Source: a virus. Taken from it: a DNA stretch of 22,174 nucleotides. The notes below the pieces were generated by a model that saw only the letters and a list, made by a program, of their open reading frames with translations, had not been told where the DNA came from and searched no databases. Shown piece after piece: positions 7,463 to 21,802 of the stretch; the first letter of the stretch is position 1; the number at the start of each line of letters is the position of its first letter. The position numbers and the translations under genes are program-made. The DNA is taken from IMG/VR virus record IMGVR_UViG_3300009181_000387, positions 1 to 22,174 of that record. The stretch is one strand, 5' to 3'.

Positions 7463-8190
7463 TCCCTGTAGATAGTTTATTATACAAGATAGATCAGAAA
7501 CTAAATAAACTATCAACTAACGAGCATCAACAAATTAACCTTGAAGATAAAATCCTAGCTTTAAATGAAGCTCAGATTAAGTTAATTAAGCAAAAGGTTG
7601 ATGGTCAAAATACAATTTCTGGTATGGGGCTTGATGCTTTTAAAAAGCGTTATGAAGACCTACAAAGTTTGGTTATAACTTATAATAACCAACCTCTTAG
7701 TTTAGCAATTAAAAATGCTGAATTAAATCAATGGTCTGCAAACATACATCTTCTTACACCTAAATACATGTTCTATATAGATAGTTATATATTAGCAGAT
7801 AAAGGAAGATGCGTAGATAGAAAGATATGGATAAATAGAGATTTGGCTAAACATGGTGATGTTTCTTTAATATTAAACAACACACATTATAAACCATCTT
7901 TTGAATATCAAGAAACATTTAACTTTATATCTTCTGATGAGATCTCTATATTTACAGATGGTACTTTTATACCAAGTAAAGTATACATCTCTTATATGAG
8001 GTATCCCAAATACATTAACAAAACTGGCTACATAATGCTTGATGGTTTACCATCATTCGATGAAGATTGTGAACTAGAAACATATTTAGAAGATGAGCTT
8101 TTAGATATTACAGTTCAGAATTTAGCAATGTATACAGAAAACCAGTCTGCTGTTCAATCTGCTCAAATGAGGATACAGACAAATGAATAA
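7459..8190 (+). CDS. Connector/ring-like head-tail protein
   Basis: This 243-residue protein starts inside the upstream stop (ATGA). It has a helical N-terminus (KIDQKLNKLSTNEHQQINLE), a beta-rich middle (PKYMFYIDSYILADKGRCVD; KVYISYMRYPKYI), and a C-terminal helix LEDELLDITVQNLAMYTEN. The C-terminal pattern 'L-x-(D/E)-(I/L)-T-x-Q-x-L' also occurs near the end of the 243-residue protein at 13850-14581, so the two may be related. Position after head genes and this layout suggest one of the stacked ring proteins that connect the portal to the tail in crAss-like podoviruses. That role is inferred; I see no diagnostic motif. Confidence 0.5.
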   Translation: MIPVDSLLYKIDQKLNKLSTNEHQQINLEDKILALNEAQIKLIKQKVDGQNTISGMGLDAFKKRYEDLQSLVITYNNQPLSLAIKNAELNQWSANIHLLTPKYMFYIDSYILADKGRCVDRKIWINRDLAKHGDVSLILNNTHYKPSFEYQETFNFISSDEISIFTDGTFIPSKVYISYMRYPKYINKTGYIMLDGLPSFDEDCELETYLEDELLDITVQNLAMYTENQSAVQSAQMRIQTNE

Positions 8191-8218: not shown

Positions 8219-9382
8219 ATGGCAGATTTTTCGTTAACTACCCTCTTTGTAGTACCAGTAGGAAATACACTTCCTAGCTCTGGATCTACACAAGACTTGA
8301 CCGCTGGTCAATTTGGGCTGTTTCGTAGTGATTACACAGTGGCTACCGCTGGTAACATTGCAGCATCCCCTTATTTTTATGCAACTCAAGGTAGAACAAA
8401 CACTTATTTACAAGGCTCTAAAAGATCTGATAAGATCAAAGGATGTCCTAGTGGATCTGGATGTAGTTCAAATGTAACAGAATGGTATAAAGTTGTATGC
8501 AACCCTGTTGCTGCTAACCAAGTAACTGAAGTGGGTAATTTCACTGTTAAACCAGGAGAAGTTATAACACTAACTTTACGTGCTTTTTCTAGCTACATTA
8601 ACACCTTGTATTTCAATGGTTTCACACGTTCAGTAACAGTGAATGCTCCATGCCTAGAGTGTGGTGGTGATCCTTGTACTGATGTTGATGTACCAGAATT
8701 GATTGATCGTTTGATTTATCAATTAGAATTAAAAGCTCCAGGTAACAATCCTGACAACATTTCCTTTAGCACTTTCTATCAGTTCCAACGTGTTGGTAAT
8801 GATGCTTCTGCTAAATTAGTTATCTCTGGTAAACCACTAACTCAATATGGACAACCATGTGATGTTGCTGCTTTCCCTTGGGAGTATGACCGTATGTGGT
8901 TCCGTACCTTTATTTATTCTGGTCCTGCTACCACTGCTGACTTCATTGTATTTGATCCTTGTAATTTAGTTGCTGAACCTGTAGTTACTCAACGTGCAAC
9001 TTATGTATCTGGTAGCTCTGCAGAGATTCAACAATTAGAAAAGAACTTCTACAGCTATCAAGCTGGTTATTTGAAGCATCTTTACAGAATGGTTGGTTAT
9101 AATGAAAACTTTGAAAGCTGGGTAACTGATGGTACTTCATATACCACTTATTACATTAAGTTTAATGAGTATGATAAATCAGCTTACCAATGGGGTGATT
9201 ACATCATGGAAGATAGCACAATAATTATTGCTGTTCCTTGTGGTGAAACCTCTGGAATTGAAGCGGTATTAACAGCAGCATTAGGTACTCCAGTTAATGA
9301 TAGTGGTGACACTACTGTTACAACTAGTACAACTACTACTGTATGGCCTTCTACTTCAACAACAACTACTTTGATTCCATAA
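8219..9382 (+). CDS. Abundant structural protein with Thr-rich tail (auxiliary capsid candidate)
   Basis: The 387-residue protein is beta-rich, with several Cys residues (GCPSGSGCSS, PCLECGGDPCTD) and no transmembrane segment. It ends in a Thr/Ser tract at residues 365-384 (DTTVTTSTTTTVWPSTSTTT), probably an extended exposed stalk. Arg codons are 8 CGT against 3 AGA, a bias otherwise seen in the capsid gene, and the A-rich leader ending AAAACAAA resembles the capsid leader. Both predict high expression, so an auxiliary capsid or head-decoration protein is my leading guess; a major tail component is the alternative. A hairpin terminator follows. Similar proteins sit beside the capsid genes of Bacteroidota phages, but I cannot name the fold. 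Confidence 0.6.
   Translation: MADFSLTTLFVVPVGNTLPSSGSTQDLTAGQFGLFRSDYTVATAGNIAASPYFYATQGRTNTYLQGSKRSDKIKGCPSGSGCSSNVTEWYKVVCNPVAANQVTEVGNFTVKPGEVITLTLRAFSSYINTLYFNGFTRSVTVNAPCLECGGDPCTDVDVPELIDRLIYQLELKAPGNNPDNISFSTFYQFQRVGNDASAKLVISGKPLTQYGQPCDVAAFPWEYDRMWFRTFIYSGPATTADFIVFDPCNLVAEPVVTQRATYVSGSSAEIQQLEKNFYSYQAGYLKHLYRMVGYNENFESWVTDGTSYTTYYIKFNEYDKSAYQWGDYIMEDSTIIIAVPCGETSGIEAVLTAALGTPVNDSGDTTVTTSTTTTVWPSTSTTTTLIP
9311..9370 (+). repeat. Thr/Ser codon tract, C-terminus of 387-residue protein
   Basis: About 20 codons are dominated by ACT/ACA with interspersed Ser, encoding the Thr-rich end. It is one of seven such tracts in the window. Confidence 0.85.
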
Positions 9383-9407
9383 GAAGAAAGTAGTTATTAT
9401 ATAACCT

Positions 9408-9457
9408 ATGCCAGAGGGTGAGAGGATTAATTCTCAAATCCTCTGGCATTATTATTT
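9408..9457 (+). terminator. Rho-independent terminator hairpin
   Basis: ATGCCAGAGG (9408-9417) pairs perfectly with CCTCTGGCAT (9440-9449). An inner stem TGAGA/TCTCA (9419-9423 with 9432-9436) continues it, and TATTATTTT follows on the + strand. The fold closes the unit ending with the 387-residue protein. It also shows that the GTG at 9418 is not a start for the next gene. Confidence 0.75.
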
Positions 9458-9465
9458 TAAAGAAT

Positions 9466-10026
9466 ATGACTTTAGATATACTGGTAATACCTACTTATAA
9501 CACATATACATTAGGAATTGCAGATGCTTCAACGTATGATACAGATCCTCCTGTTGTCACTGCTCCAACAATAGAAATTACTATTCCTGGATTTGCTACA
9601 CCTGTGTTTCTACCATTTGTAGTAAATGATTTTAATATATTTAATTCAACATCATTAGGACTTAGTGGTGTAGGAGATCCATTAATTCCTTTACCAGATG
9701 GTATATACTATTTGAGATATACAGTTTCTCCTGCATATATAAATTATGTAGAGAAGAACATTATGCGTACAGAATTAATACAAGAAAAGTTTGATAGTGC
9801 TTTTATGAAGCTTGATATGATGGAATGTGATCTTGCTATTAAAACACAATCAAAAGTGAATTTAAATAGTATATACTATATGATATCAGGATCTATAGCT
9901 GCAGCAAATAACTGTGCTATAGACACAGCTAACACATTGTATATACAAGCAAATAATATGTTGAATAACTTTATAAGAAACAACTGTGGTTGTTCTGGTA
10001 ATAATTATCAAATCAACTTTGTTTAA
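9466..10026 (+). CDS. Conserved structural protein of Bacteroidota phages, probable tail-associated
   Basis: Starting at ATG 9466 gives 186 residues. The upstream in-frame GTG at 9418 lies in the terminator hairpin and is rejected. Residues 1-90 look beta-rich (APTIEITIPGF, LPLPDGIYYLRYTVSPAY style), and residues about 95-170 form a helical part with YVEKNIMRTELIQEKFDSAF and LDMMECDLAIKTQSKVNLNS. The tail has two close Cys in NNCGCSGNNY. I recognise the combination of 'PDGIYYLRYTVSP' with 'KLDMMECD' as recurring in Bacteroidota phage virion modules, but no function is known to me. It is immediately followed by a 44-residue Cys-rich gene and an 88-residue gene; the three probably act together. 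Confidence 0.65.
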   Translation: MTLDILVIPTYNTYTLGIADASTYDTDPPVVTAPTIEITIPGFATPVFLPFVVNDFNIFNSTSLGLSGVGDPLIPLPDGIYYLRYTVSPAYINYVEKNIMRTELIQEKFDSAFMKLDMMECDLAIKTQSKVNLNSIYYMISGSIAAANNCAIDTANTLYIQANNMLNNFIRNNCGCSGNNYQINFV

Positions 10027-10027
10027 A

Positions 10028-10162
10028 ATGGCAAACTGTAAAAACTGTAGAGCTAAGGTGGGATGTGGTTGTCAATTAATTAATGGCTTATGTTCAGCAT
10101 GTAACTATGCTGTTCAGCAAGCAGCTAAACTAGCTAAAGATGTTATCGCCAAGATTAACTAA
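10028..10162 (+). CDS. Small Cys-rich protein (44 residues), possible metal-binding
   Basis: An ATG one base after the upstream stop opens a 44-codon gene reading MANCKNCRAKVGCGCQLING, then LCSACNYAVQQAAKLAKDVI and AKIN. Three Cys pairs (C-x2-C, C-x-C, C-x2-C) in 26 residues suggest one zinc site or a disulphide-linked knot, followed by an amphipathic helix. Its place between two structural genes, and its 23-base overlap with the next gene, argue that it is real and translated. The Cys spacing resembles a small zinc ribbon but is too short to assign. It may be a minor virion component or an assembly helper. Confidence 0.6.
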   Translation: MANCKNCRAKVGCGCQLINGLCSACNYAVQQAAKLAKDVIAKIN

Positions 10163-10406
10163 CTGTATAGAATGTGCAAGCATTCCTGTGTTACTAAAAG
10201 ATATTGATGCAAAGCTAACAGAGTTGGCTAAGATTCAATATAATAATATTATATTTTCTATGAACTATAACCTTGGGTGTAGTCCAATTGGTGATCTATT
10301 AAATTACAAAAGAATATTAACATATAAGTATTGTAATCCAGATTATGCTAAATCCTACACTGTAAAAAGAATAGCTAGTAGAGTTAAACTTTTAATTCAT
10401 AAATAA
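10140..10406 (+). CDS. Small conserved virion-module protein (88 residues)
   Basis: The 88-residue product starts inside the preceding small gene (23-base overlap). The N-terminus has C-x2-C (TNCIECASIPVLLKDIDAKL). The 'DIDAKL' segment recalls the LQKIDAKL of the protein at 11616-11924, although the surrounding sequence differs. The C-terminal half, with DLLNYKRILTYKYCNPDYAK and RIASRVKLLIHK, is a pattern I have seen in short proteins of Bacteroidota phage tail modules. The function is unknown. The order 186-residue, Cys-rich, 88-residue gene implies a functional set. The overlap suggests reinitiation or coupling. Confidence 0.6.
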   Translation: MLSPRLTNCIECASIPVLLKDIDAKLTELAKIQYNNIIFSMNYNLGCSPIGDLLNYKRILTYKYCNPDYAKSYTVKRIASRVKLLIHK

Positions 10407-10414
10407 CTTATAAA

Positions 10415-11596
10415 ATGTCAGAAACCACCACTACTACTACTTCTAGTACTAGTACCACTTCTACTACTACTTCTACCACCACCACAGCATATCACAGTTC
10501 TTGTGATGCTTGTTATAATGGTTGTGTATCAGTAACTCCTGATGCGTGTGTTAGATATACAGGAATTGATTATCCTGCTTTAGATATTGTTACAGGAGAT
10601 TCATTACTTACTATAGAAAATATATTGATTAATAATGTTATCTCTTTTTTAGATGGAACAGGTATTAATATCACTATAGATCCTTCATACTATTGCGAAC
10701 TTGTTAGCCAATATTTAGTAGATACTCCAATTCCTACAGTGCCTCAATTGTTTAGTGCTTTAGTAAGAGCTGCTTGTAGTTTACAAGCTCAAGTAACAGC
10801 AATTGATGAAACACTAGCTATATTAAATGCTGATTATGATGTAGACTGCTTAACTGGTGTAACAGACTCTAGTGATACACATGCTGTATTACAAGCTGTT
10901 ATAACAAAGCTTTGTTTAGTAAGTGCTAACCTAGATGCATTTGAAATCTATGCAGATGTTACGTATGTAAAACTTGCTGATTTAAATGCCCTAATAGCTG
11001 CTTATTTATCTAGTCAACTTCCTTCTACACAACAATATGTAAAGATGATTCCTTACGCTGCTATAGAGTATTATGGACCATTGACAAACTTTGATGGTAC
11101 AGGTGCTGGTATAAGTGCATTAGGATGGGATAAGGTGTATCTATGTAATGGTTCAAATGGCACTCCTGATAAAAGAGGAAGAGTTGGTGTTGGTGCAATA
11201 TTTGATGTACCAGGTGGTCCATTATCTTCTGTTGTAAATCCTATATATGCTGGTAATCCAAATTATGATCTTGGAGATTTAGTTGGTGCAAATACAGTGG
11301 GATTAAATGTTTCACAACTACCTAGTCATACACATACAGCAACATCAAGTGCTTCTTCAGCAGTTACTGATCCTGGACATACACACTATGCAGGACATAC
11401 TCCTGATCAATGGGGAGGAAGTGGTACTATTGGTATTACTACTAATAGCCCTCAGAATGTATTAACAACATCATCATACACAAATATCACTGTAGCAACT
11501 ACAGTGAATGTAAGTAATGGTAATACTGGTAGTGGTGAGAATCATGCAAATATTCAACCTGTTATTGCTGCATATTATATAATGTATATTCCTTAA
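10415..11596 (+). CDS. Tail fibre/collar protein with T4 gp12-like tip
   Basis: This 393-residue fibre-like protein starts with a Thr/Ser tract (residues 4-24). A Cys-containing adapter follows (SCDACYNGCVSVTPDACVRY, then LDIVTGDSLLTIENIL), then a helical, repetitive shaft-like middle (SALVRAACSLQAQVTAID). From about residue 235 it resembles phage tail-collar domains: W-D-K-V-Y-L-C-N-G, then DKRGRVGVG (252-260), then His motifs PSHTHT (303-308) and PGHTHYAGH (320-328), and a closing NIQPVIAAYYIMYIP. In T4 gp12 the HxH motif binds zinc in the trimeric tip, and the closing 'N-x-(Q/P)-P-x-x-x-x-x-Y-x-(I/M)' is typical. It is a candidate receptor-binding protein. The 'DIVTG' adapter is shared with the next gene. 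Confidence 0.75.
   Translation: MSETTTTTTSSTSTTSTTTSTTTTAYHSSCDACYNGCVSVTPDACVRYTGIDYPALDIVTGDSLLTIENILINNVISFLDGTGINITIDPSYYCELVSQYLVDTPIPTVPQLFSALVRAACSLQAQVTAIDETLAILNADYDVDCLTGVTDSSDTHAVLQAVITKLCLVSANLDAFEIYADVTYVKLADLNALIAAYLSSQLPSTQQYVKMIPYAAIEYYGPLTNFDGTGAGISALGWDKVYLCNGSNGTPDKRGRVGVGAIFDVPGGPLSSVVNPIYAGNPNYDLGDLVGANTVGLNVSQLPSHTHTATSSASSAVTDPGHTHYAGHTPDQWGGSGTIGITTNSPQNVLTTSSYTNITVATTVNVSNGNTGSGENHANIQPVIAAYYIMYIP
10424..10486 (+). repeat. Thr/Ser codon tract, N-terminus of collar protein
   Basis: Twenty-one codons encode only Thr and Ser, using ACC, ACT and TCT/AGT mixed. The mixed synonymous codons suggest selection on the protein rather than simple slippage. Confidence 0.85.
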
Positions 11597-11615
11597 TATT
11601 ATAAATTAACTATAA

Positions 11616-11924
11616 ATGGCTTGCCTACCTGGAACTCCATGTTATAATGCTTACTATCATCCAAGTGAAAACTGTGGATGTAGTGAATGTGTAATCACAT
11701 CTAATAATGTAACATATAGTGGTCCTAACCTACCAAATACAGATATTGTTACAGGAGAGTGTCTTACAACATCATTACAAAAGATAGATGCTAAATTAGA
11801 TCCTACAGCACTTGCTCATGAAGTTTTAGCAACAATAGCATTGAGTCCTTCTCTATCCTTATTATTTTGTACGTTAGTAAGTAATTGTACATCAACTACT
11901 ACTACCACTACAACAACTCCTTAA
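11616..11924 (+). CDS. Small adapter-like fibre protein with Thr tail
   Basis: This 102-residue protein has a Cys-rich start (CLPGTPCYNAYYHPSENCGC), then VTYSGPNLPNTDIVTGECLT and LQKIDAKLD, a short helical segment, and a C-terminal Thr tract at residues 92-101. The 'Y-(S/T)-G-x-(D/N)-x-P-x-x-D-I-V-T-G' block matches the adapter of the collar protein (YTGIDYPALDIVTGDSL). I think of this block as a fibre attachment or oligomerisation unit in Bacteroidota phages. The gene looks like the collar protein's front end without the shaft and tip. It could be a separate decoration protein or the leftover of a fibre gene. Confidence 0.6.
   Translation: MACLPGTPCYNAYYHPSENCGCSECVITSNNVTYSGPNLPNTDIVTGECLTTSLQKIDAKLDPTALAHEVLATIALSPSLSLLFCTLVSNCTSTTTTTTTTP
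11889..11918 (+). repeat. Thr codon tract, C-terminus of 102-residue protein
   Basis: Ten codons encode Thr (one Ser), ending one codon before the stop. Confidence 0.8.
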
Positions 11925-11934
11925 AACCAAACCA

Positions 11935-12420
11935 ATGACAGTATTAATAACATTAACTTTAGCAGGTGCAGATACAGGTCCTTTTGACTTATATTCAGAT
12001 TTAGATGGATACACTACACCTTTTGAAACAGGTGTATCTAAAGCTGCATTACTTGCTGGATATTTATCATCATTAGTTCCTGATGGAACAAGTGGTATTC
12101 TTGTACAATCTACAGGAGTTTGTGATAGAGACTTATTTTTGAATGTTGAAGGTTATCCAACTACAACAACCACTACAAGTTCATCTACTAGCACAACTAC
12201 AACTAGTACATCTACAAGCACTACAACTACAACAACTACAGCACTTCCTTGTACAAACTATTACAACAATACAGAAACTACATATACAATAAATTATGTT
12301 GATTGTCTTGGTGGACCAGCGGTTGTAGGATATGAAATTCCTCCAGGATATGGAGTGTGTGTATCATCAATCAGTGGTGACTATGGATATCTATTAGATC
12401 TAGGCCCCTGTGTTGTATAA
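11935..12420 (+). CDS. Modular decoration protein: TGPF domain, Thr tract, Y-x-D-C domain
   Basis: The 161-residue protein has three clear modules. Residues 1-73 form a small beta domain with LAGADTGPFDLYSDLDG and ILVQSTGVCD. Residues 76-102 are pure Thr/Ser. Residues 106-161 form a Cys-containing domain (CTNYY, INYVDCLGG, GYEIPPGYGVCV, ending LGPCVV). The first module closely matches the N-terminus of the protein at 20936 (LTGAGNRTGPFTIYDDLE, IILQSTGKC). The third matches the C-terminus of the giant protein at 16045 (C-E-N-W, IQYYDC, then C-terminal Cys). No function is known to me. Surface exposure, with the Thr tract as an extended or glycosylated linker, is an inference. It is the last gene before a strong terminator. 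Confidence 0.6.
   Translation: MTVLITLTLAGADTGPFDLYSDLDGYTTPFETGVSKAALLAGYLSSLVPDGTSGILVQSTGVCDRDLFLNVEGYPTTTTTTSSSTSTTTTSTSTSTTTTTTTALPCTNYYNNTETTYTINYVDCLGGPAVVGYEIPPGYGVCVSSISGDYGYLLDLGPCVV
12160..12240 (+). repeat. Thr/Ser codon tract in 161-residue protein
   Basis: Twenty-seven consecutive Thr/Ser codons, alternating ACT and ACA with scattered Ser, form the longest such tract in the window. Confidence 0.85.
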
Positions 12421-12599: not shown

Positions 12600-13850
12600 A
12601 TGTCAGAAAACAACAACCTGTTGAACCAGCTTCAACAAATGTTACATTGGAAGAAAAGTAAAAAGTTTTATGCAGAAAAATTAGGAATTACAGAGTTTGA
12701 AATTGATGAGCTGTTATCAGACATCAGAAGAAGAGAGCAGGCTGAAGAAGCTGCTGAGATAGGAAACTACATTAGTGAATTAGAAGATGTAGTGGTTAAG
12801 TTTGAAGAAGATTTAGTTAAAGGAATAGGAGAAATTGTAATCAATACAAAAGAAGAGATTAAAAGCTTGGAAGAGCTTATAGTCAAATGCAAAATAGATA
12901 CAGATAAGTGGGAGATAACTAAATATGTACAGAATTTCTGGGGTAATAGTGATTCACCACACTGGCAGGTTAAAGCTTGGTTAGGTAAAAAGAAGGATGA
13001 ACAAGTGTTTCAAGATTCATTTATTGACTTCCTAGCTTCATATGAACCCATCTCTCAAGAAATAATGAGTCCTAAGTTTGCTTTAAATAAATCTTTTGGC
13101 TCATTAATTATTAATAAACAAGACTCTCATCTAAACAAATATGATATTGATGGAAATAATGACATCAATGAAAGATTAGGAGATATTCTATACAAGGTGG
13201 AATTGATTGCTACACAAGCAGCTCTTTCAAACAATCTAGAGAACATCACATACATTATTGGTTCTGATGAATTTAATAGTGAATACTCAGGAGCTACAAC
13301 CAAAGGAACTCCTCAAACTAATACACATACATATCAACAATCATTTGAATATATATGTAACCATGAGGTGCTAATGATTACAATGTTATTACAATATGCT
13401 GAAAATGTTAATGTTGTATATGTAGCAGGTAATCATGATGAGTATGTAGGTTGGCATATGATTAATTGGTTACAAAGTTATTTCAGAGGAACAGCTAGAT
13501 TAGAATTTGATTGTTCTCCTAAATATAGAAAGTATATAAGTTATGGTATTTCTGCTATGATGTTTAATCATGGAGATGCTATTAAGCCTGCTAAGTTAGC
13601 AGCAATATTCCCAATGGAATTTAAAGATGGTTGGTCTTTTCATAAAAACTTTTACATCTTCACAGGAGATAAGCACCATGAGGTGAGTCACGATTTTAAT
13701 GGTATTAAATTTTACCAAATTCCAGCATTCTCTAATGCTAAAAGTCTTTGGGATGATAAGAATGGTCATGTGATGTCAAAAGCTGAAGTGACTGGATTCT
13801 TAATAGATGAGAATGATGGGATGACAAATATATTCAAACAATACTTATAA
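12600..13850 (+). CDS. HTH-containing calcineurin-like metallophosphoesterase
   Basis: This 416-residue enzyme has two parts. Residues about 17-45 form a helix-turn-helix-like segment (KKFYAEKLGITEFEIDELLS), followed by a charged helical stretch to about 100. From about 165 the metallophosphoesterase motifs appear in order: D-x-H (D175, H177), G-S-D-E-F-N (221-226, a variant of GDxxD/N), GNHDE (277-281), NHGD (323-326) and GDKHHE (356-361, a variant of GHxH). These bind two metal ions in SbcD/Mre11-type nucleases and other phosphoesterases. The substrate is unknown; a role on DNA is plausible given the HTH. It opens the unit behind a terminator and promoter candidate, and its stop overlaps the next start (TAATG). 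Confidence 0.8.
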   Translation: MSENNNLLNQLQQMLHWKKSKKFYAEKLGITEFEIDELLSDIRRREQAEEAAEIGNYISELEDVVVKFEEDLVKGIGEIVINTKEEIKSLEELIVKCKIDTDKWEITKYVQNFWGNSDSPHWQVKAWLGKKKDEQVFQDSFIDFLASYEPISQEIMSPKFALNKSFGSLIINKQDSHLNKYDIDGNNDINERLGDILYKVELIATQAALSNNLENITYIIGSDEFNSEYSGATTKGTPQTNTHTYQQSFEYICNHEVLMITMLLQYAENVNVVYVAGNHDEYVGWHMINWLQSYFRGTARLEFDCSPKYRKYISYGISAMMFNHGDAIKPAKLAAIFPMEFKDGWSFHKNFYIFTGDKHHEVSHDFNGIKFYQIPAFSNAKSLWDDKNGHVMSKAEVTGFLIDENDGMTNIFKQYL

Positions 13851-14581
13851 TGGCAACATTAAGAAAAATGGTTTCAGATGTGCGGTCAATGCACAAGCTT
13901 TTATCAACAGATAATCTTATCACTGATAGAGTGGTGGCATCTGAGATTAAAAACAATACACAATTATTGATTAAACGTGAGACAAACCTCAGAAAGCTTT
14001 GGGCTACTGATACTGTATTTACTACCATCCCTTGTTTAGAGATGATAGAAGTTCCTATTTCTGAGTGTTGTGAATATGTTGATCCTTGTAATGTAGCAAG
14101 AACTAGATTTAAAATTCCTCGTATATCTGAAGGAAACTACCAATATCTTATTCAAGGTGTTTATTCTATAAATGCTATGGGTGGACAGGGTAAGAGATTT
14201 AAAGAGATTACAATCAATAGGTATTTAAATCTATTAAAACTTCCTATTATAAAGAAAGAACAATATTATTGGATAACTAATGGTTATCTCTACATTAATA
14301 ATCCTTTGTTAAAAGCTGTTAGAATAGCTGCTTTCTTTGAAGAAGATGTTCCTAATGAGATTATGTATCCAGAATGTGGATGTGGACCTGGACCTACTGT
14401 AAGCACAGAAGACTGGTGTAAGAATCCATTGGATAAAGAATATGGATGTCCAGGTTATTTAGAAAAACAAGTGCTAGAATTAACATCTCAAAAGTTATTA
14501 TCTACTTATTTCAGAATTAAAACAGATATGACATTTGATGGTGTAGATGGTCAAGCACCAAATGCACAACCAAATCACTAA
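13850..14581 (+). CDS. Connector/ring-like head-tail protein
   Basis: This 243-residue protein is joined to both neighbours by TAATG overlaps. It has a helical N-terminus with LIKRETNLRKLWATDTVFTT, a beta-rich middle (ISEGNYQYLIQGVYSINAMG; YYWITNGYLYINNPLLKAVR), Cys clusters SECCEYVDPCN and PECGCGPGP, and a C-terminal helix YLEKQVLELTSQKLLSTYFR. The pattern 'plain beta domain ending in (V/I)RIAAFFE', followed by that helix, is what I expect of the portal-adjacent ring proteins of crAss-like podoviruses, where an IHF-like gene and another ring gene follow. The C-terminal helix resembles that of the protein at 7459. Function is inferred from context. Confidence 0.6.
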   Translation: MATLRKMVSDVRSMHKLLSTDNLITDRVVASEIKNNTQLLIKRETNLRKLWATDTVFTTIPCLEMIEVPISECCEYVDPCNVARTRFKIPRISEGNYQYLIQGVYSINAMGGQGKRFKEITINRYLNLLKLPIIKKEQYYWITNGYLYINNPLLKAVRIAAFFEEDVPNEIMYPECGCGPGPTVSTEDWCKNPLDKEYGCPGYLEKQVLELTSQKLLSTYFRIKTDMTFDGVDGQAPNAQPNH

Positions 14582-15060
14582 TGCCTAGAGTTCATATAGA
14601 GTGGAGAAGCTCCAGTAAAGATAACTACAATAACTTCTGTAAGAAGAATCCTGATATCAAACTTACATTTGATGAATGGAGAAACATTATATACTCTTAT
14701 AATGAGCATTTCAAGAATTATATATTAGAAACTGGAGAGAAGGCTAGATTACCTTTTGGGTTTGGTGAGTTTTCAATTAACAAAAAGAAGAGAAAGAAAA
14801 TAAAGAACATCCAAGGTAAAGAGTATGTTAATCTACCTGTCAATTGGCAAAGAACCAAAGAGAAGGGAAAGATGATATATAATTTTAATTACCATACAGA
14901 AGGCTATTTCTTTGGCTGGATGTGGTTTAAAGAATCAACTAGACTAAAGAATATAAACCTTTGGTATTTTAAACCTTCACGTACTACATCACGATTGTTA
15001 TCACATTACATCAATACAAACGATAAATATCAACATATTTATTGTGAGTGGAAAAAATAA
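14581..15060 (+). CDS. IHF/HU-like DNA-binding protein
   Basis: The 159-residue protein has an HU/IHF-like core. A helical segment (LTFDEWRNIIYSYNEHFKNY, ILETGEK) leads into ARLPFGFGEFSINKKKRKK, which matches the HU signature 'G-x-x-(V/A)-x-(L/I)-x-x-F-G-x-F-x-V-x-x-(R/K)' at the start of the DNA-binding arms. The arm tip and second half are longer and more aromatic than in bacterial HU (about 90 residues), with KESTRLKNINLWYFKPSRTT near the end. Crassvirales typically carry such genes among tail genes. Binding or bending DNA during packaging or ejection is the natural role, but structural use is possible. It starts at a TAATG overlap and is followed after five bases by the next ring gene. 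Confidence 0.72.
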   Translation: MPRVHIEWRSSSKDNYNNFCKKNPDIKLTFDEWRNIIYSYNEHFKNYILETGEKARLPFGFGEFSINKKKRKKIKNIQGKEYVNLPVNWQRTKEKGKMIYNFNYHTEGYFFGWMWFKESTRLKNINLWYFKPSRTTSRLLSHYINTNDKYQHIYCEWKK

Positions 15061-15065
15061 AATAA

Positions 15066-16034
15066 ATGTCATACTATTACAAGTATAATTTCATCTCTCC
15101 TGAACCAGTTTATTCAACTGTCAAGGAAGAGTTAAAAAGCTATTTTGATACAGGAGCTGTAGATGATTTGCTTTTTCCTACCTATCTAGACAAATGTCTT
15201 AAGAAGTTAGGCAGAACAACTTTTGTAATTGCTGAGCAACCTCTATATATTGAGGACTTTCAAGCTAGACTTCCAGATAACTTTTATGCTGTAAGAGAAG
15301 CTTGGATGTGTACAGAGATTCCACAATATCCTTATCAATCAGCTAATTCATTTTATTCTCAAGCTGCTACACAAACAACAATACAGGTGAGTCCTGTTAC
15401 TATTGGTGGTGCTCCTTGTGTTAATCCTACATGTGTAACAGGATGTCCTGAATGTATGCCTGAGCTTATACAAGCTGTATATAAAACAAACAATTCTATA
15501 GCTAGAGCATATCAACAAAACTATTTGCTAAAACCAGGTAATATATCTGCAAGAACAAATTGTAATGTAGATTATAACAATGCTTGGGAGTTTGGACAAT
15601 ATGCTCCTCCTTTACATGAGTTCACTCCAGGATCTGCTAGTTATGATTCATTTGATGTTAGAGATAATAAGTTTGTTACTAATTTCAGAAATGGTATAGT
15701 TCATTTGATATTTTATGCCACTGAATATGATTGTGTTGGTAATCAAATGGTTCCTGATAATTATCGTATTAGAGAATATATAGAAGCATTTATTAAATAT
15801 AAAGTGTTTGAAACTCTATCTAACCAGCTCACTGATGAGACCTTTCAACAAATACAGCAAAAGCTAGTATATTACAAAGGTTTATCTGATGAAGCATTTA
15901 TTATGGCTGATATTGAAATCAAGAAACAAACTCCTTGGGAAAAGCAAAGAAGGATAAAGAATGATCTAAACAGAAATAATAAGTACGAATTACCAAATAG
16001 AACTAACCGTTATGGTTGGAGAAGAAATGGATAA
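15066..16034 (+). CDS. Head-tail ring protein, crAss-like (R1-type candidate)
   Basis: The 322-residue protein lies between the IHF-like gene and the muzzle gene, where crAss-like phages encode the ring that binds the portal. The N-terminus reads YKYNFISPEPVYSTVKEELK, then DDLLFPTYLDKCLKKLGRTT and LPDNFYAVREAWMCTE. A middle Cys cluster (CVNPTCVTGCPEC) could bind metal or form disulphides. After a beta region (FRNGIVHLIFYATEYDC), a helical end contains IREYIEAFIKYKVFETLSNQ and EIKKQTPWEKQRRIKN. This mix of a beta sandwich and C-terminal helices fits a podoviral head-completion or adaptor protein. Assignment relies on gene order and on recalled family patterns. Confidence 0.7.
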   Translation: MSYYYKYNFISPEPVYSTVKEELKSYFDTGAVDDLLFPTYLDKCLKKLGRTTFVIAEQPLYIEDFQARLPDNFYAVREAWMCTEIPQYPYQSANSFYSQAATQTTIQVSPVTIGGAPCVNPTCVTGCPECMPELIQAVYKTNNSIARAYQQNYLLKPGNISARTNCNVDYNNAWEFGQYAPPLHEFTPGSASYDSFDVRDNKFVTNFRNGIVHLIFYATEYDCVGNQMVPDNYRIREYIEAFIKYKVFETLSNQLTDETFQQIQQKLVYYKGLSDEAFIMADIEIKKQTPWEKQRRIKNDLNRNNKYELPNRTNRYGWRRNG

Positions 16035-16044
16035 AATTTAATAA

Positions 16045-19000
16045 ATGGCAGATCAAGAACAAGGGAATGTTAGACAAGAAACCAATTCTGGACAGAGTGG
16101 TTTAAATATGGATTCATCTATAGGACAAGTTCCTAAAGGTGCTCTTACATATGCATTAAACGCTGCTGTAGAAAACTTCGATGCTAATTCTGTAAACTAT
16201 CAGAATGAGCCAGGTAATGAGTTTTGTCTAAACTTTCCTGAAAACTTTCATAATATAGGTAATCATTTTATTCCAGAACAAAATAAGCATATATTCTTTT
16301 TAGTTAATCCTGAAACAGGAGCTTCTCAAATAGGATATATGGAAAATAATGATTGTGTATATGTTCAATATATTCAAGGAGACTGTCTTAATTTTAATAT
16401 AAACTATCCAATTCATAAAGCTGTACACAAGATTACAAATTGTGTAACAGAAATATATTGGACAGATGGATTAAATCCTAGAAGATATTTAAATCTAAAT
16501 AATCAACCATGGGTTACAATTTATGTTGATGGGATTATATGTGATCCTGTTGTAGAAGAAGGTGTAATTGATTGTAATAAATTAAATATTCAACCTAATT
16601 TTTCTATACCAGAACTAGTTATAGCAGATGTAACTAATGTTGGAGATTTAACTGCTGGTACATATCAATTTGCTATTCAATACGCTAGTGCTATAGGAGA
16701 TGGTTATACATCTTATTATTCAGTTACTAACCCTACATCTATTGCTAATCCTCAACTTACAACACTAGATTTTAATTATGCTGTAGGTAGAGCTATTATA
16801 ATAAATATTGATAACTTAGATCTTACAGGATATTTTCAATATTACAACTTAGCTGTAATTAAAACCATAAATGGTGTAGCATCTGTAGAACTTGTAGGTA
16901 CATATTTCATTGATGGTTTAGCAAATCAAATAACATACACAGGACAAAATCTAACACAGATTCCTCTCAGCACTGCTGATATATTTGAGAAGTTTCCATA
17001 TTATGATATAGCTCAAGACTTAACAGCAGTTCAGGATATATTAGTGTGGGATAATCTTACATCTATTGATAAAATTAATTATCAAAATATTGCTAATAAG
17101 ATTGATCTTCAATGGGAAACTTATAAACTTCCTAGTACAGACAGTTATGCAAATGCATTAAACACTGTAAATCTAAGAGGTTATCTTAGAGATGAGGTGT
17201 ACGCATTTGAAATAACATTCTTATTAAAGAACGGTAAACAAACAGATAGTTTTCATATTCCTGGTAGAGCTAAGAATTCAAATGAAGCTTATCCAGATGT
17301 ACCATCAACTAATCCTGATTTTATTGGTTCAGGAGCAAGTGCTCCATATTGGAAGATATATAATACGGCATCTGTAACTGGAACTGCTATAGGACCTCCT
17401 ATTGGAAATGCTACACCATATCAATATGGTGAGTTTGCATATTGGGAATCAACAGAAAAATATCCATGTAACACTCTTGTATGGGGCAATCTTGCTGATA
17501 CATACATTAGACATCATAAGTTTCCTGATGTATTAGTTTCTCCTATATTTGAAACTCCTGCACCAGAATATAATGCAGATGGTACATATAAAACCACAAT
17601 GCAAAATGATGCCATTTATCCAATTGGTGTTAGAGTTAGTACAGATCAAATTGTTCAATTAATAAATCAATCAACTCTTACACAACAAGAGAAGAACAAT
17701 ATAGCTGGATATAAAATAACAAGAGGAGATAGAAGCACAAATAAATCTATTGTAGCAAAAGGAATTCTTAGAAATGTAGGTAAATACACAAGAGAAGAAA
17801 CCGATTACTACTATCCTAACTATCCTTATAATGATCTCAATAAAGATCCATTCCTTCTTGAGAAGAATAATGGATTTAATTCTCAGTGTGGTACATTTAA
17901 AATACTTGTTTACGCTGCTGGTACATTACAATATACAGATTGTAACACTGGTGAATTAACAGTGGAGAATGTAGGTTTTTATACACTTACACAATGTTCT
18001 ATGACTGTGCCTGTTATGTTAACAGGAGCAGCAGTTATTGAGAACATGACAGCTACATCTTATACATTAGCAGCATTTTATGATGGTGTTACTACTTGGG
18101 CAAATTTTCAATATACTATTCCTGGTGGATCTTCTGCCACTGCATTTGTAGAGGTTGATAAACCACAAACAATAAGTTCTAGTACAGTTCCTACATATAC
18201 AAATGGTACAGGTAAGTATAGCATTACACAAGTTAATAATATAAACATAACTTGTTATCCTGATGAATTAGAAGCATTTAATGATGATTCTTCTAAATAT
18301 AGACAAGTATTTAATTCTCCTGAAACTTCTTTTGGACAACCTATTCTAGGAAATATTCTTAAATTAGAAAGTGCAATATATGGTGCTGGTAAAGCTCATT
18401 TTGTACAAGTGAAGAAACATGCCTTATATAAACTTATTAGTGAACAAGCACAGGTGGAGGCATTAACATCTAGTTATAACATTGCTTTTATTACAGGTAC
18501 GTTTGACTCTACAGCAATGTTCACTGCTTACCAAGCATATCTACAAATATACATTAATGGTATAAGTAGAAGAAATTTTACATATTCATTCAACTCTATA
18601 GCTAGTTATGACTATAGTGCTGATATAGCTAATAATATAGGAGTTAAACAAAGAGAACTTGATATATATCAATATCTTATCCCTGGTGTACAATCAGTGG
18701 GAGATGATCATAATGTTAATAACTTTCAAAGAGAATCTTCTGTTTATTTAAAAACAAAAGAAGCAGTACAACCGTTACCTTTTCCAAATCAAACACCAAG
18801 TGTTGTGGTTGCTGGTAATAGTTTAATTTCTGATAATTCAAGATTTACCCTATCTCAAAAAAATACATGTACTATTCCTGAGATGCAAGAACATATTGAT
18901 ACAATTTGTTACTATGCATCACTTAAAACTATGTTTGTAAATCAGTGGGGGCAAATGTATTCTTATAGTACAATTGATACAGGATTTCAAAGAATCTTTA

Positions 19001-20919
19001 ATAGTCTTAGTGTTAGTCAACCTGATGTAGTATTTGGTGGAGATACATTTATTACTAGGTTTGCATTTAAAACTAAACTACCATTCTTTATAGATAATAG
19101 AGTGAATGCTCCTGATGATAGTGATGTATTCTATGATGAGATAGGTAATGTTGCCTATCCTCAATACTGGTATTCAGCTAGGTCTGTTTTAAGTAATTAT
19201 ATAGCAGGATCAGTTACACTAAAGAATATCATATCTATAAAAGCACATAATCTTGATTGTGCTAATGATGCCACTGTGTTAGTAGGTACAACTACCACCA
19301 CTACAACTAGTGCTGGAACATTTGTTACATCAAGTTCTACAACAATGTCTTACACTGGTAAGATGTATTTATTTGCTTATGGTATTCCTTCTTTCTATGT
19401 AGAGAGTTCTGTTAATGTAGATTTACGTCAAGCATTTAATAACCTAGAAGGTGATTTCTATCCTCACGTGAGTACAGGTATTCCTGATAACTGGTTACAA
19501 CAATCTGTTGTTCCTATTCAGTTTGACAACACCTATCATTATAATGTAACATATTCTAGACAGAATAAAGAAAACTATTTCTCTCATCTACCTGTAGATT
19601 GGGATGATAATCAATGTTATACAAACTTTCCTTTTAGAGCAATTTATTCTGAAGCACAATTAAATGATCCTAGCATCAAGGTGAACAACTGGTTGACCTA
19701 TGCTCCAATATCATTCTTTGATTTTCCTCAAACATATGGTGATCTTGTATCATTAGATGGTATTCAAAATAAAGCTGTACTAGCTAGATTTGAAAACAAG
19801 AGCTTGTTATATAATACAATGCTTACAGTTCAAACTAGTAACCCACAAGCTGCTTATTTAGGAAATGACACATTGTTTAGATCTTCTCCTCCAATTGATT
19901 TTGCTGATACAAATCTTGGTTACATGGGAAGTCAGAATAAAATGTTATTAAAGATTCCTAATGGACAAATAACAATAGATGCTAAAAGAGGACAAATATT
20001 CTTAGTTGCTGGTAATCAAGCACAAGAGATATCTGCATTTGGTTCTGGATTAAATAGATTCTTTACAGATCATTTAGCATTTGAGATTCTTAGATATTTT
20101 CCAGATACATATGTAATGGTAGATGGACAAAGAATATTAATACCAGGAGCAAATACAGATAATCATTTTAATGGTTGTGGTTTACATGGTGTATATGATA
20201 GTAAATATGATAGAGTTATTATATCAAAACTTGATTATATTCCTCAACCAGAATATGTAAATATTATAAAATATAATTCTACTTTACAAAAGTATTATAT
20301 AGAACATACGTTAGGGGAAAGTGTATTAATAGAATATATAGACTTAACAAATAGAAAGTATTTCTGTAATAAGAGCTGGACACTATCTTTCAATTTTAAT
20401 ACAAGAACTTGGATTAGTTTCCATAGTTATATTCCTAATTGGTATATAGCTGAGAACAACTTCTTCTATTCTGGATTAAATGAAGGATGTGATTTAGAAG
20501 CAATTGCTGTTCAGGAGATTCCTACACCAACAACAACTACTACCACTACAATTGTATTAGATTGTGCATTAGCAGGATTTGCTGTTATAGGACCATGTGA
20601 GTTAGATGGAACTGCATATACAAATGATCCAGTTCCTACAACTACCACAACCACATCAACTAGCACATCTACAACTACTACCACAACAACTATTGGTATC
20701 ACTTGTGAAAATTGGAACTTACAAGCATTATCAGGTACAGTGGATACCGTTATTCAATATTATGATTGTACTAATGTTTTACATACAGTTACATTAATGC
20801 CAGAAGAATTTTTAGGATGTACACCAATTAATGCACATGGATTTGGACCAGGTAATTTAGGATCAGATAGATGGCTTATAGTTTCTGGACCAGGATATGG
20901 TGGTGAAACTCCTTGTTAA
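16045..20919 (+). CDS. Tail hub (muzzle) protein, P22 gp10-like, N-terminal and central part
   Basis: The 1624-residue protein starts with SGLNMDSSIGQVPKGALTYA and IYWTDGLNPRRYLNLNNQPW, patterns I associate with crAss-like muzzle/P22 gp10-type hub proteins. The long body is beta-rich, with FNQFQ-style repeats and segments such as DTYVMVDGQRILIPGANTDN. A short Thr tract sits at 1082-1088. Around residue 1440-1485, WTLSFNFNTRTWISFHSYIP and FYSGLNEG match the point where a hub normally continues. Instead the protein has a Thr tract (1496-1502), a small Cys module, a second Thr/Ser tract (1532-1549) and a Y-x-D-C domain to Cys1624. The missing C-terminal hub part appears to be the gene at 20936, 16 bases downstream. 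Confidence 0.72.
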   Translation: MADQEQGNVRQETNSGQSGLNMDSSIGQVPKGALTYALNAAVENFDANSVNYQNEPGNEFCLNFPENFHNIGNHFIPEQNKHIFFLVNPETGASQIGYMENNDCVYVQYIQGDCLNFNINYPIHKAVHKITNCVTEIYWTDGLNPRRYLNLNNQPWVTIYVDGIICDPVVEEGVIDCNKLNIQPNFSIPELVIADVTNVGDLTAGTYQFAIQYASAIGDGYTSYYSVTNPTSIANPQLTTLDFNYAVGRAIIINIDNLDLTGYFQYYNLAVIKTINGVASVELVGTYFIDGLANQITYTGQNLTQIPLSTADIFEKFPYYDIAQDLTAVQDILVWDNLTSIDKINYQNIANKIDLQWETYKLPSTDSYANALNTVNLRGYLRDEVYAFEITFLLKNGKQTDSFHIPGRAKNSNEAYPDVPSTNPDFIGSGASAPYWKIYNTASVTGTAIGPPIGNATPYQYGEFAYWESTEKYPCNTLVWGNLADTYIRHHKFPDVLVSPIFETPAPEYNADGTYKTTMQNDAIYPIGVRVSTDQIVQLINQSTLTQQEKNNIAGYKITRGDRSTNKSIVAKGILRNVGKYTREETDYYYPNYPYNDLNKDPFLLEKNNGFNSQCGTFKILVYAAGTLQYTDCNTGELTVENVGFYTLTQCSMTVPVMLTGAAVIENMTATSYTLAAFYDGVTTWANFQYTIPGGSSATAFVEVDKPQTISSSTVPTYTNGTGKYSITQVNNINITCYPDELEAFNDDSSKYRQVFNSPETSFGQPILGNILKLESAIYGAGKAHFVQVKKHALYKLISEQAQVEALTSSYNIAFITGTFDSTAMFTAYQAYLQIYINGISRRNFTYSFNSIASYDYSADIANNIGVKQRELDIYQYLIPGVQSVGDDHNVNNFQRESSVYLKTKEAVQPLPFPNQTPSVVVAGNSLISDNSRFTLSQKNTCTIPEMQEHIDTICYYASLKTMFVNQWGQMYSYSTIDTGFQRIFNSLSVSQPDVVFGGDTFITRFAFKTKLPFFIDNRVNAPDDSDVFYDEIGNVAYPQYWYSARSVLSNYIAGSVTLKNIISIKAHNLDCANDATVLVGTTTTTTTSAGTFVTSSSTTMSYTGKMYLFAYGIPSFYVESSVNVDLRQAFNNLEGDFYPHVSTGIPDNWLQQSVVPIQFDNTYHYNVTYSRQNKENYFSHLPVDWDDNQCYTNFPFRAIYSEAQLNDPSIKVNNWLTYAPISFFDFPQTYGDLVSLDGIQNKAVLARFENKSLLYNTMLTVQTSNPQAAYLGNDTLFRSSPPIDFADTNLGYMGSQNKMLLKIPNGQITIDAKRGQIFLVAGNQAQEISAFGSGLNRFFTDHLAFEILRYFPDTYVMVDGQRILIPGANTDNHFNGCGLHGVYDSKYDRVIISKLDYIPQPEYVNIIKYNSTLQKYYIEHTLGESVLIEYIDLTNRKYFCNKSWTLSFNFNTRTWISFHSYIPNWYIAENNFFYSGLNEGCDLEAIAVQEIPTPTTTTTTTIVLDCALAGFAVIGPCELDGTAYTNDPVPTTTTTTSTSTSTTTTTTTIGITCENWNLQALSGTVDTVIQYYDCTNVLHTVTLMPEEFLGCTPINAHGFGPGNLGSDRWLIVSGPGYGGETPC
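19288..19308 (+). repeat. Thr codon tract inside the muzzle protein
   Basis: Seven Thr codons (residues 1082-1088), followed by SAGTFVTSSSTTMS, form an internal loop-like insertion well inside the hub body. Confidence 0.7.
20530..20550 (+). repeat. First C-terminal Thr tract of the muzzle protein
   Basis: Seven Thr codons encode residues 1496-1502 at the point where the recognisable hub sequence stops. Confidence 0.75.
20638..20691 (+). repeat. Second C-terminal Thr/Ser tract of the muzzle protein
   Basis: Eighteen Thr/Ser codons encode residues 1532-1549, just before the Y-x-D-C domain. The order tract then domain is the same as in the 161-residue protein at 11935. Confidence 0.85.
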
Positions 20920-20935
20920 AATATAAAATAAAAGT

Positions 20936-21802
20936 ATGTCTAAGGTAATAATAGTAAAATTAACAGGAGCTGGAAACAGAACTGGACCATTCACAATCTA
21001 TGATGATTTGGAGAATGTTCTAGCTACAGATGTTCCTAAAGAACAACTCATCATAGGAGTTGTGTACACTGTAGATGATGCAGTGACTACTATTATATTA
21101 CAATCCACTGGTAAATGTCACACTGTTATATCAATAACAATAGGAACAGCAACAGTTGAGGAGTTAGCAGCTATTACATTTACAGAAATTAATACATCTA
21201 GTTTATGGAGACATTTAACTAACACATTGATTTACAATACATATTATGATAATATAGAACCTTATATAATTGAATATCCATTCTTCTATCAATATCATGA
21301 TGAAATTCTTCAGAATGTAAAAGACTTCTCAAGAGTGTATAAATATCTTCCTATACCAGATGGTGTATTCAATGATAATGCACAGATACAAACTGATAAC
21401 CAATATTTCAATAAAGCTATTCTTTATAATGGTCAGCAGTCAACTGGTATATTAGAACTAGTTGCTAAACCAATTAATAACTTAAAGGAATATTTGAAGT
21501 ATCCTTTATATAACGCTGAGAGTAAGACAATTACGTACACTAAGAATGATAGTTTCTATCAATATAATACGTTCTGGAGTCTTGTTAAAAATAAATCCAT
21601 ACCTTTGTTTGTAACTGGTTGTGAATCATTATCAATAGATAAGATTATAAATCAAGCAAATATGGATTATGGTAAACGTTCATTCAAGAAAGAACCACTA
21701 AGAGCTAAAGGTTTAATGGTGAGACACATTCTTGATAATGCATCTGACGCACATATAGTTTCTCAATTTATTATTACACCTGCTCAAATCTCTTATAAGT
21801 AA
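20936..21802 (+). CDS. Muzzle/hub C-terminal part fused to a TGPF domain
   Basis: This 288-residue protein combines two parts. Residues 1-70 are a TGPF domain (LTGAGNRTGPFTIYDDLE; IILQSTGKC), homologous by eye to residues 1-73 of the protein at 11935. From about residue 88 the sequence (SLWRHLTNTLIYNTYYDNIE, YFNKAILYNGQQSTGILELV, SFYQYNTFWSLVKNK, NMDYGKRSFKKEPLRAKG, QFIITPAQISYK) matches what I recall as the end of crAss-like hub proteins. It therefore looks like the detached C-terminal part of the muzzle encoded upstream. A 16-base A/T-rich gap with its own ATG separates them, so this is a normal gene boundary. Its stop overlaps the next ATG (TAATG). An independent fibre or tail protein is the alternative. 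Confidence 0.6.
   Translation: MSKVIIVKLTGAGNRTGPFTIYDDLENVLATDVPKEQLIIGVVYTVDDAVTTIILQSTGKCHTVISITIGTATVEELAAITFTEINTSSLWRHLTNTLIYNTYYDNIEPYIIEYPFFYQYHDEILQNVKDFSRVYKYLPIPDGVFNDNAQIQTDNQYFNKAILYNGQQSTGILELVAKPINNLKEYLKYPLYNAESKTITYTKNDSFYQYNTFWSLVKNKSIPLFVTGCESLSIDKIINQANMDYGKRSFKKEPLRAKGLMVRHILDNASDAHIVSQFIITPAQISYK

Follow-up and report, generated by a model that had tools for sequence, protein, structure and literature searches.

The muzzle protein of the crAss-like phage crAss001, gp44, assembles as a hexamer at the end of the tail, and members of its family vary in length through insertions, which lie in the crass and IG2 domains (PMC10172136). Some crAss-like phages frequently have introns, inteins and recoded stop codons (PMC7886860). 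Here we describe a clade in which the muzzle protein is, very probably, a naturally split virion protein that arose by cassette insertion and whose chains reassociate.

The DNA analysed (hereafter the window) is a stretch of 22,174 nucleotides from IMG/VR record IMGVR_UViG_3300009181_000387. A match to the Pfam family crAss_MUZ identifies its source as a crAss-like phage genome. The matching protein, P1 (1624 residues, 16045-20919), passes the family cut-off (PF25731; E 4e-28, 98.5 bits against a required 27). P2 (288 residues, 20936-21802), encoded on the same (+) strand, starts in another frame after a stop codon and a 16-base gap; the two are thus not encoded as a single polypeptide, a variation that does not affect their kinship with the muzzle family. 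Comparison of the region with phage records by blastn gave no match. The original prediction viewed P1 and P2 as one tail hub protein interrupted by a surface-module cassette. The elements it listed (both open reading frames, the 16-base gap, two Thr tracts, a Cys module, and the YxDC and TGPF domains) are all in place. It gave the interval as 20480-21300; the full feature spans 16045-21802. The features are given below; loci with the muzzle in two genes are termed split, those with a single gene fused, and L numbers designate individual loci.

16045-20484, + strand: hub part of P1 (residues 1-1480), the main muzzle region without the C-terminal domain; PF25731, PHROG 15100 and 37948, alignment to Lbo-JY46 up to residue 1457.
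20485-20529, + strand: short conserved extension past the cut (GCDLEAIAVQEIPTP), running into the first Thr tract; at 102 of the 130 distinct split loci, 15-18 residues separate the cut from the start of the first Thr run.
20530-20550, + strand: first Thr tract, seen in the sequence; 126 of the 130 distinct tails contain a run of at least six T/S.
20551-20637, + strand: Cys module (IVLDCALAGFAVIGPCELDGTAYTNDPVP), seen in the sequence and retained in L001 and L002.
20638-20697, + strand: second Thr/Ser tract, with a module-swap breakpoint near 20688, where homology between the window and L001 ends.
20698-20916, + strand: YxDC-type module that ends P1; the near-identical L001 has an unrelated module in its place and no DNA match over 20689-20911.
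20917-20935, + strand: TAA stop and 16-base A-rich gap ahead of the P2 start; an A-rich leader precedes the P2 ATG in 131 distinct loci, and TAA is the P1 stop in 126 of the 131.
20936-21193, + strand: TGPF domain of P2 (residues 1-86), a small beta domain folded confidently by AlphaFold2; present in 231 of 231 split loci, window included, and in 0 of 58 fused loci.
21197-21799, + strand: hub C-terminal domain of P2 (residues 88-288), aligning with the final ~200 residues in both Lbo-JY46 and Fpv1; PF25729 falls here in Fpv1; median dN/dS 0.07.
11935-12420, + strand: separate TGPF-led gene (TGPF domain, Thr tract, YxDC module; TGPF HMM match 3e-9), with the architecture of the genes found between the halves in relatives.

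Alignment to complete muzzle proteins showed that these continue beyond the hub end of P1 through P2 residues 88-288. In the single-chain protein of Lbo-JY46, P1 residues 1-1480 align up to Lbo residue 1457 (E 5e-94), and P2 aligns from its residue 88 and Lbo residue 1461 (E 1e-20) to the C-termini of both. In that of Fpv1, P1 residue 1478 corresponds to Fpv1 1584 and P2 residue 88 to Fpv1 1588 (E 5e-16), the latter alignment again reaching the Fpv1 C-terminus. In both homologues the P1 and P2 junctions thus abut within four residues, which chance would not give. PHROG 15100 (structural proteins, 1783 positions) is matched by P1 at 11-417 and by P2 at 1587-1781. These three alignments bear out the hub motifs of the original prediction (FYSGLNE; SLWRHLTNT...TPAQISYK) and its division of the hub over two genes, the sequence being cut after about residue 1480 of P1 and resuming at P2 residue 88 to run to TPAQISYK. 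Judged from the alignments, P2 residues 88-288 are the C-terminal domain that the muzzle protein P1 lacks.

Comparison with gp44 places the cut at a domain boundary. MAFFT sets FYSGLNE/SLWRHL on YAFKDG/KMWEQF of gp44, and a profile comparison with hhalign returns the same register, weakly (E 0.019, probability 2.5%). In gp44, crAss_MUZ ends at residue 1235 and crAss_MUZ_C begins at 1244; the equivalent of the cut, at about 1236/1237, falls between the two, and in Fpv1 it falls just before crAss_MUZ_C. P2 has no direct match to PF25729 (crAss_MUZ_C) at E<=1; the connection passes through Fpv1, which matches this family at 6e-14 and aligns with P2 at 5e-16. No muzzle came up when the PDB was searched by sequence with P1, P2, Fpv1 and the A5 profile. 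The cut sits where the main muzzle region meets the C-terminal domain, in what seems to be a hairpin turn, rather than within the crass domain. The fused relative L090 was modelled with low confidence; in that model the equivalent residue (340) lies in a hairpin turn between strands 331-338 and 341-346. By analogy with the known domains of gp44, P2 residues 88-288 may join the muzzle to the tail ring.

AlphaFold2 modelled the two parts of P2 differently. Residues 1-80, the TGPF domain, reached pLDDT values of 82-94 per 10-residue block, while the hub part alone stayed at 23-51 and was not predicted to fold. The hub part is modelled poorly even in fused L090 (546 residues, mean pLDDT 53), and the failure of P2 to fold alone therefore lends weak support to dependence on P1. 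Foldseek with the P2 model returned nothing significant, the top hits being C2, Ig and other beta-sandwich folds at E ~1; the L090 model was too uncertain for fold assignment, with phage tail complexes and beta-propellers among its weak matches (E >0.1). For the TGPF domain, searches of Pfam, PHROGs and GenBank phage records yielded no match.

Searching IMG/VR with P2 yielded 399 relatives, the best 80 of which all match from residue 1. The C-terminal region of Lbo-JY46 retrieved no IMG/VR relatives, and a mixed alignment was too diverse to serve as a locus-search query. The sample comprised 230 split loci, some overlapping on the same contig, whose C-domain sequences number 131 when duplicates are removed, and 58 fused loci, with 36 distinct ones; loci were picked by similarity to the queries, a choice that may miss rarer arrangements. 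All 230 split loci are broken at the same site and in each the TGPF domain opens the C chain. An HMM search for TGPF and a scan for runs of six Thr found neither in any of the 58 fused loci. In the fused clade of L090, 1-6 codons separate the aligned halves. One fused locus, L137, has a lone in-frame stop elsewhere in the muzzle gene than at the split site, which may be an error or have arisen by recent mutation. Its presence shows that such events happen, and one might read the split in the window phage likewise, as a single mutation of this phage or an artefact of sequencing or assembly. This reading has practically no probability left: the same break, conserved start and new domain recur across many independent metagenomes, in 131 distinct C-domain sequences, and this recurrence refutes it. 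The split is clade-wide in the sampled sequences and not an event confined to the window phage.

A tree of 87 representatives calls for a single change between split and fused states (SH-aLRT 97), and the outgroups and the sister clade of the split clade are single chains. Since Fpv1-type phages, Lbo-JY46 and gp44 (the last outside the tree) are all fused, the fused state is likely ancestral. On this tree the split is old and stable, with one origin. Together with the finding that components of the cassette occur in none of the fused loci sampled, this agrees with the proposal that a surface-module cassette came to interrupt the hub gene.

Could P1 form the whole muzzle without the old C-terminal domain, leaving P2 to act at another place as a separate accessory protein? 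The TGPF domain of P2 also occurs in free-standing genes. Furthermore, pairwise distances among split loci correlate only modestly across the junction (0.11-0.35, against 0.49 and 0.41 within the halves), which suggests recombination at the cassette or, alternatively, loose coupling. However, the C domain closes every single-chain homologue sampled. It occurs once in each of 14 split contigs (111-118 kb), in an open frame of 288-308 residues, and once in each of four fused contigs, inside frames of 1681-2094 residues. The order P1-P2 is kept at all split loci examined, and a median dN/dS of 0.07 for the P2 hub part denotes strong purifying selection. On balance we regard an accessory role for P2 as improbable. 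With the hub C domain present in a single copy, on the second chain only, the two chains must meet if the muzzle has a C domain at all; constraint and copy number together make it likely that the muzzle keeps this domain, which would require reassembly in trans. Reassembly of P1 and P2 in the virion is strongly implied by these sequence data.

A second alternative would preserve a single mature muzzle chain by joining the halves after transcription or translation, through a group I or II intron, an intein, frameshifting or readthrough. Other split genes of crAss-like phages are indeed interrupted by introns and inteins (PMC7886860). But here the insert is coding on both sides of the break, TGPF is under selection (median dN/dS 0.22), the start methionine of P2 is invariant in 36 aligned sequences, the P1 stop is TAA in 126 of 131 loci, and entire genes sit between the halves at many loci. 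In 80 distinct loci where the halves are direct neighbours, the gap from stop to start ranges from -1 to 34 bases and occupies all three frames; frameshifting and readthrough were rejected on this ground. Rfam, applied to the window and to nine relatives, gave no intron RNA reaching the gathering threshold, nor any at E<=1 over 20300-21400, and no intein was present among the Pfam matches of P1 and P2. Joining into one chain is, accordingly, a still less probable reading than an accessory P2.

The junction of the split muzzle is a site of rapid change. The window and L001 share 98.6% identity over 13116-20099 and 98.3% from 20912 on, whereas L001 carries 448 unrelated bases in place of window 20689-20911, the segment that runs from the second Thr tract to the P1 stop. 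The P1 tails of 72 lineages have almost no 4-mers in common, while the adjoining hub parts are ~74% identical; tail length at split loci ranges from 15 to 963 residues. The tail of P1 is, on the sampled loci, a hypervariable Thr-linked cassette, and long tails may contain recognisable domains, such as the DUF5122 propeller in L029. At 49 of 130 distinct split loci (~38%) at least 250 bases separate the halves, and the genes located there are nearly all TGPF-led. Modules are found again at other sites and in lineages whose cores are less alike, although the cross-site pair counts include some hub segments and their totals overstate module traffic. The window's separate TGPF gene (11935-12420) is 78% identical over 63 amino acids to a between-half gene of L236. 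It belongs to a run of genes at 8219-12420 with Thr tracts and Cys/YxDC modules; a tail-fibre-like protein (PHROG 8763, 8469) is encoded at 10415-11596. The variability of the modules suggests that they are displayed outward, where they may take part in binding the host surface.

Other hub loops also accept modules, as indicated by Thr-flanked inserts. These occur within single chains near residues 1080-1100 of the window P1 and, in L056, L264 and L269, in the loop that precedes the final blade-like segment. In L072 (~7651-7660) the insert in the blade loop closes with a stop codon and a new start follows 5 bases later; the third chain carries one blade-like segment, and the muzzle is thus encoded as three chains. 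L055 and L158, 95% similar to L072, were not flagged with a second break. L266 (6485-7707) has a similar arrangement, with a second break that is less clear because its P1 end looks frame-shifted. A second break, giving three chains, is thus present in one relative, and possibly in two. Among the single-chain Fpv1-like loci, L085-L089 have an insert of ~250 residues in this blade loop, ahead of the C domain, with a DxSGSF-type motif that by eye resembles a von Willebrand A domain.

We propose that an ancestor with a single-chain muzzle acquired a passenger cassette in a tight turn before the C-terminal domain. The cassette would have brought a stop and a new start, to be fixed once and then kept. 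Chain 1 now terminates in a stalk rich in Thr that bears exchangeable Cys/YxDC modules, and chain 2 opens with the TGPF domain, to which the hub C-terminal domain is fused. Most likely, the two chains associate at the old interface during assembly, in six copies as expected from gp44, and both new ends would leave the hub at one spot. Since a stop of its own ends the passenger and the essential C domain begins at a start of its own, modules and whole TGPF-led genes can be swapped without preserving the reading frame. A more specific version, to which we give about an even chance, is that the break is an evolved exchange port: a hub beta-hairpin was opened, modules and TGPF-led genes are exchanged independently of the hub domains, TGPF serves as a common docking domain, and a second loop was opened in at least one relative.

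The known crassvirus structure has this core virion protein, which forms a gate, as one chain; across a large clade it would thus be made as two chains, apparently, and as three in at least one relative, with the cut at one precise turn coinciding with the site of rapid module exchange. The muzzle would provide a natural example of a split and reassembled structural protein, and a plausible route for swapping tail-tip surface modules while leaving the hub intact. The partial literature sample searched contained no precedent for a split phage structural protein or a split crAss muzzle.

Among described systems, gp44 of crAss001 (PDB 7qok, 7qol, 8ckb) belongs to the same family, the C-terminal piece of P2 being in register with it from about residue 1237. 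However, gp44 is one chain of 1371 residues, whereas the window muzzle has its last ~200 residues on a second chain together with TGPF, and P1, unlike gp44, ends in a variable tail linked through Thr. Length variation published for the gp44 family lies elsewhere than at the junction of the split clade. The single-chain muzzles of Fpv1 (a Flavobacterium phage), Lbo-JY46 (a Leptolyngbya phage) and 48 L090-related IMG/VR loci are homologous over both P1 and P2, but unbroken at the cut site, the cut falling between near-adjacent residues. The crAss-like genes interrupted by introns or inteins (Yutin et al. 2021, PMC7886860) likewise present a conserved phage gene in pieces; there, intron or intein domains splice the product together, whereas the split muzzle showed no intron, and both of its chains possess a separate start, a separate stop and a new domain.
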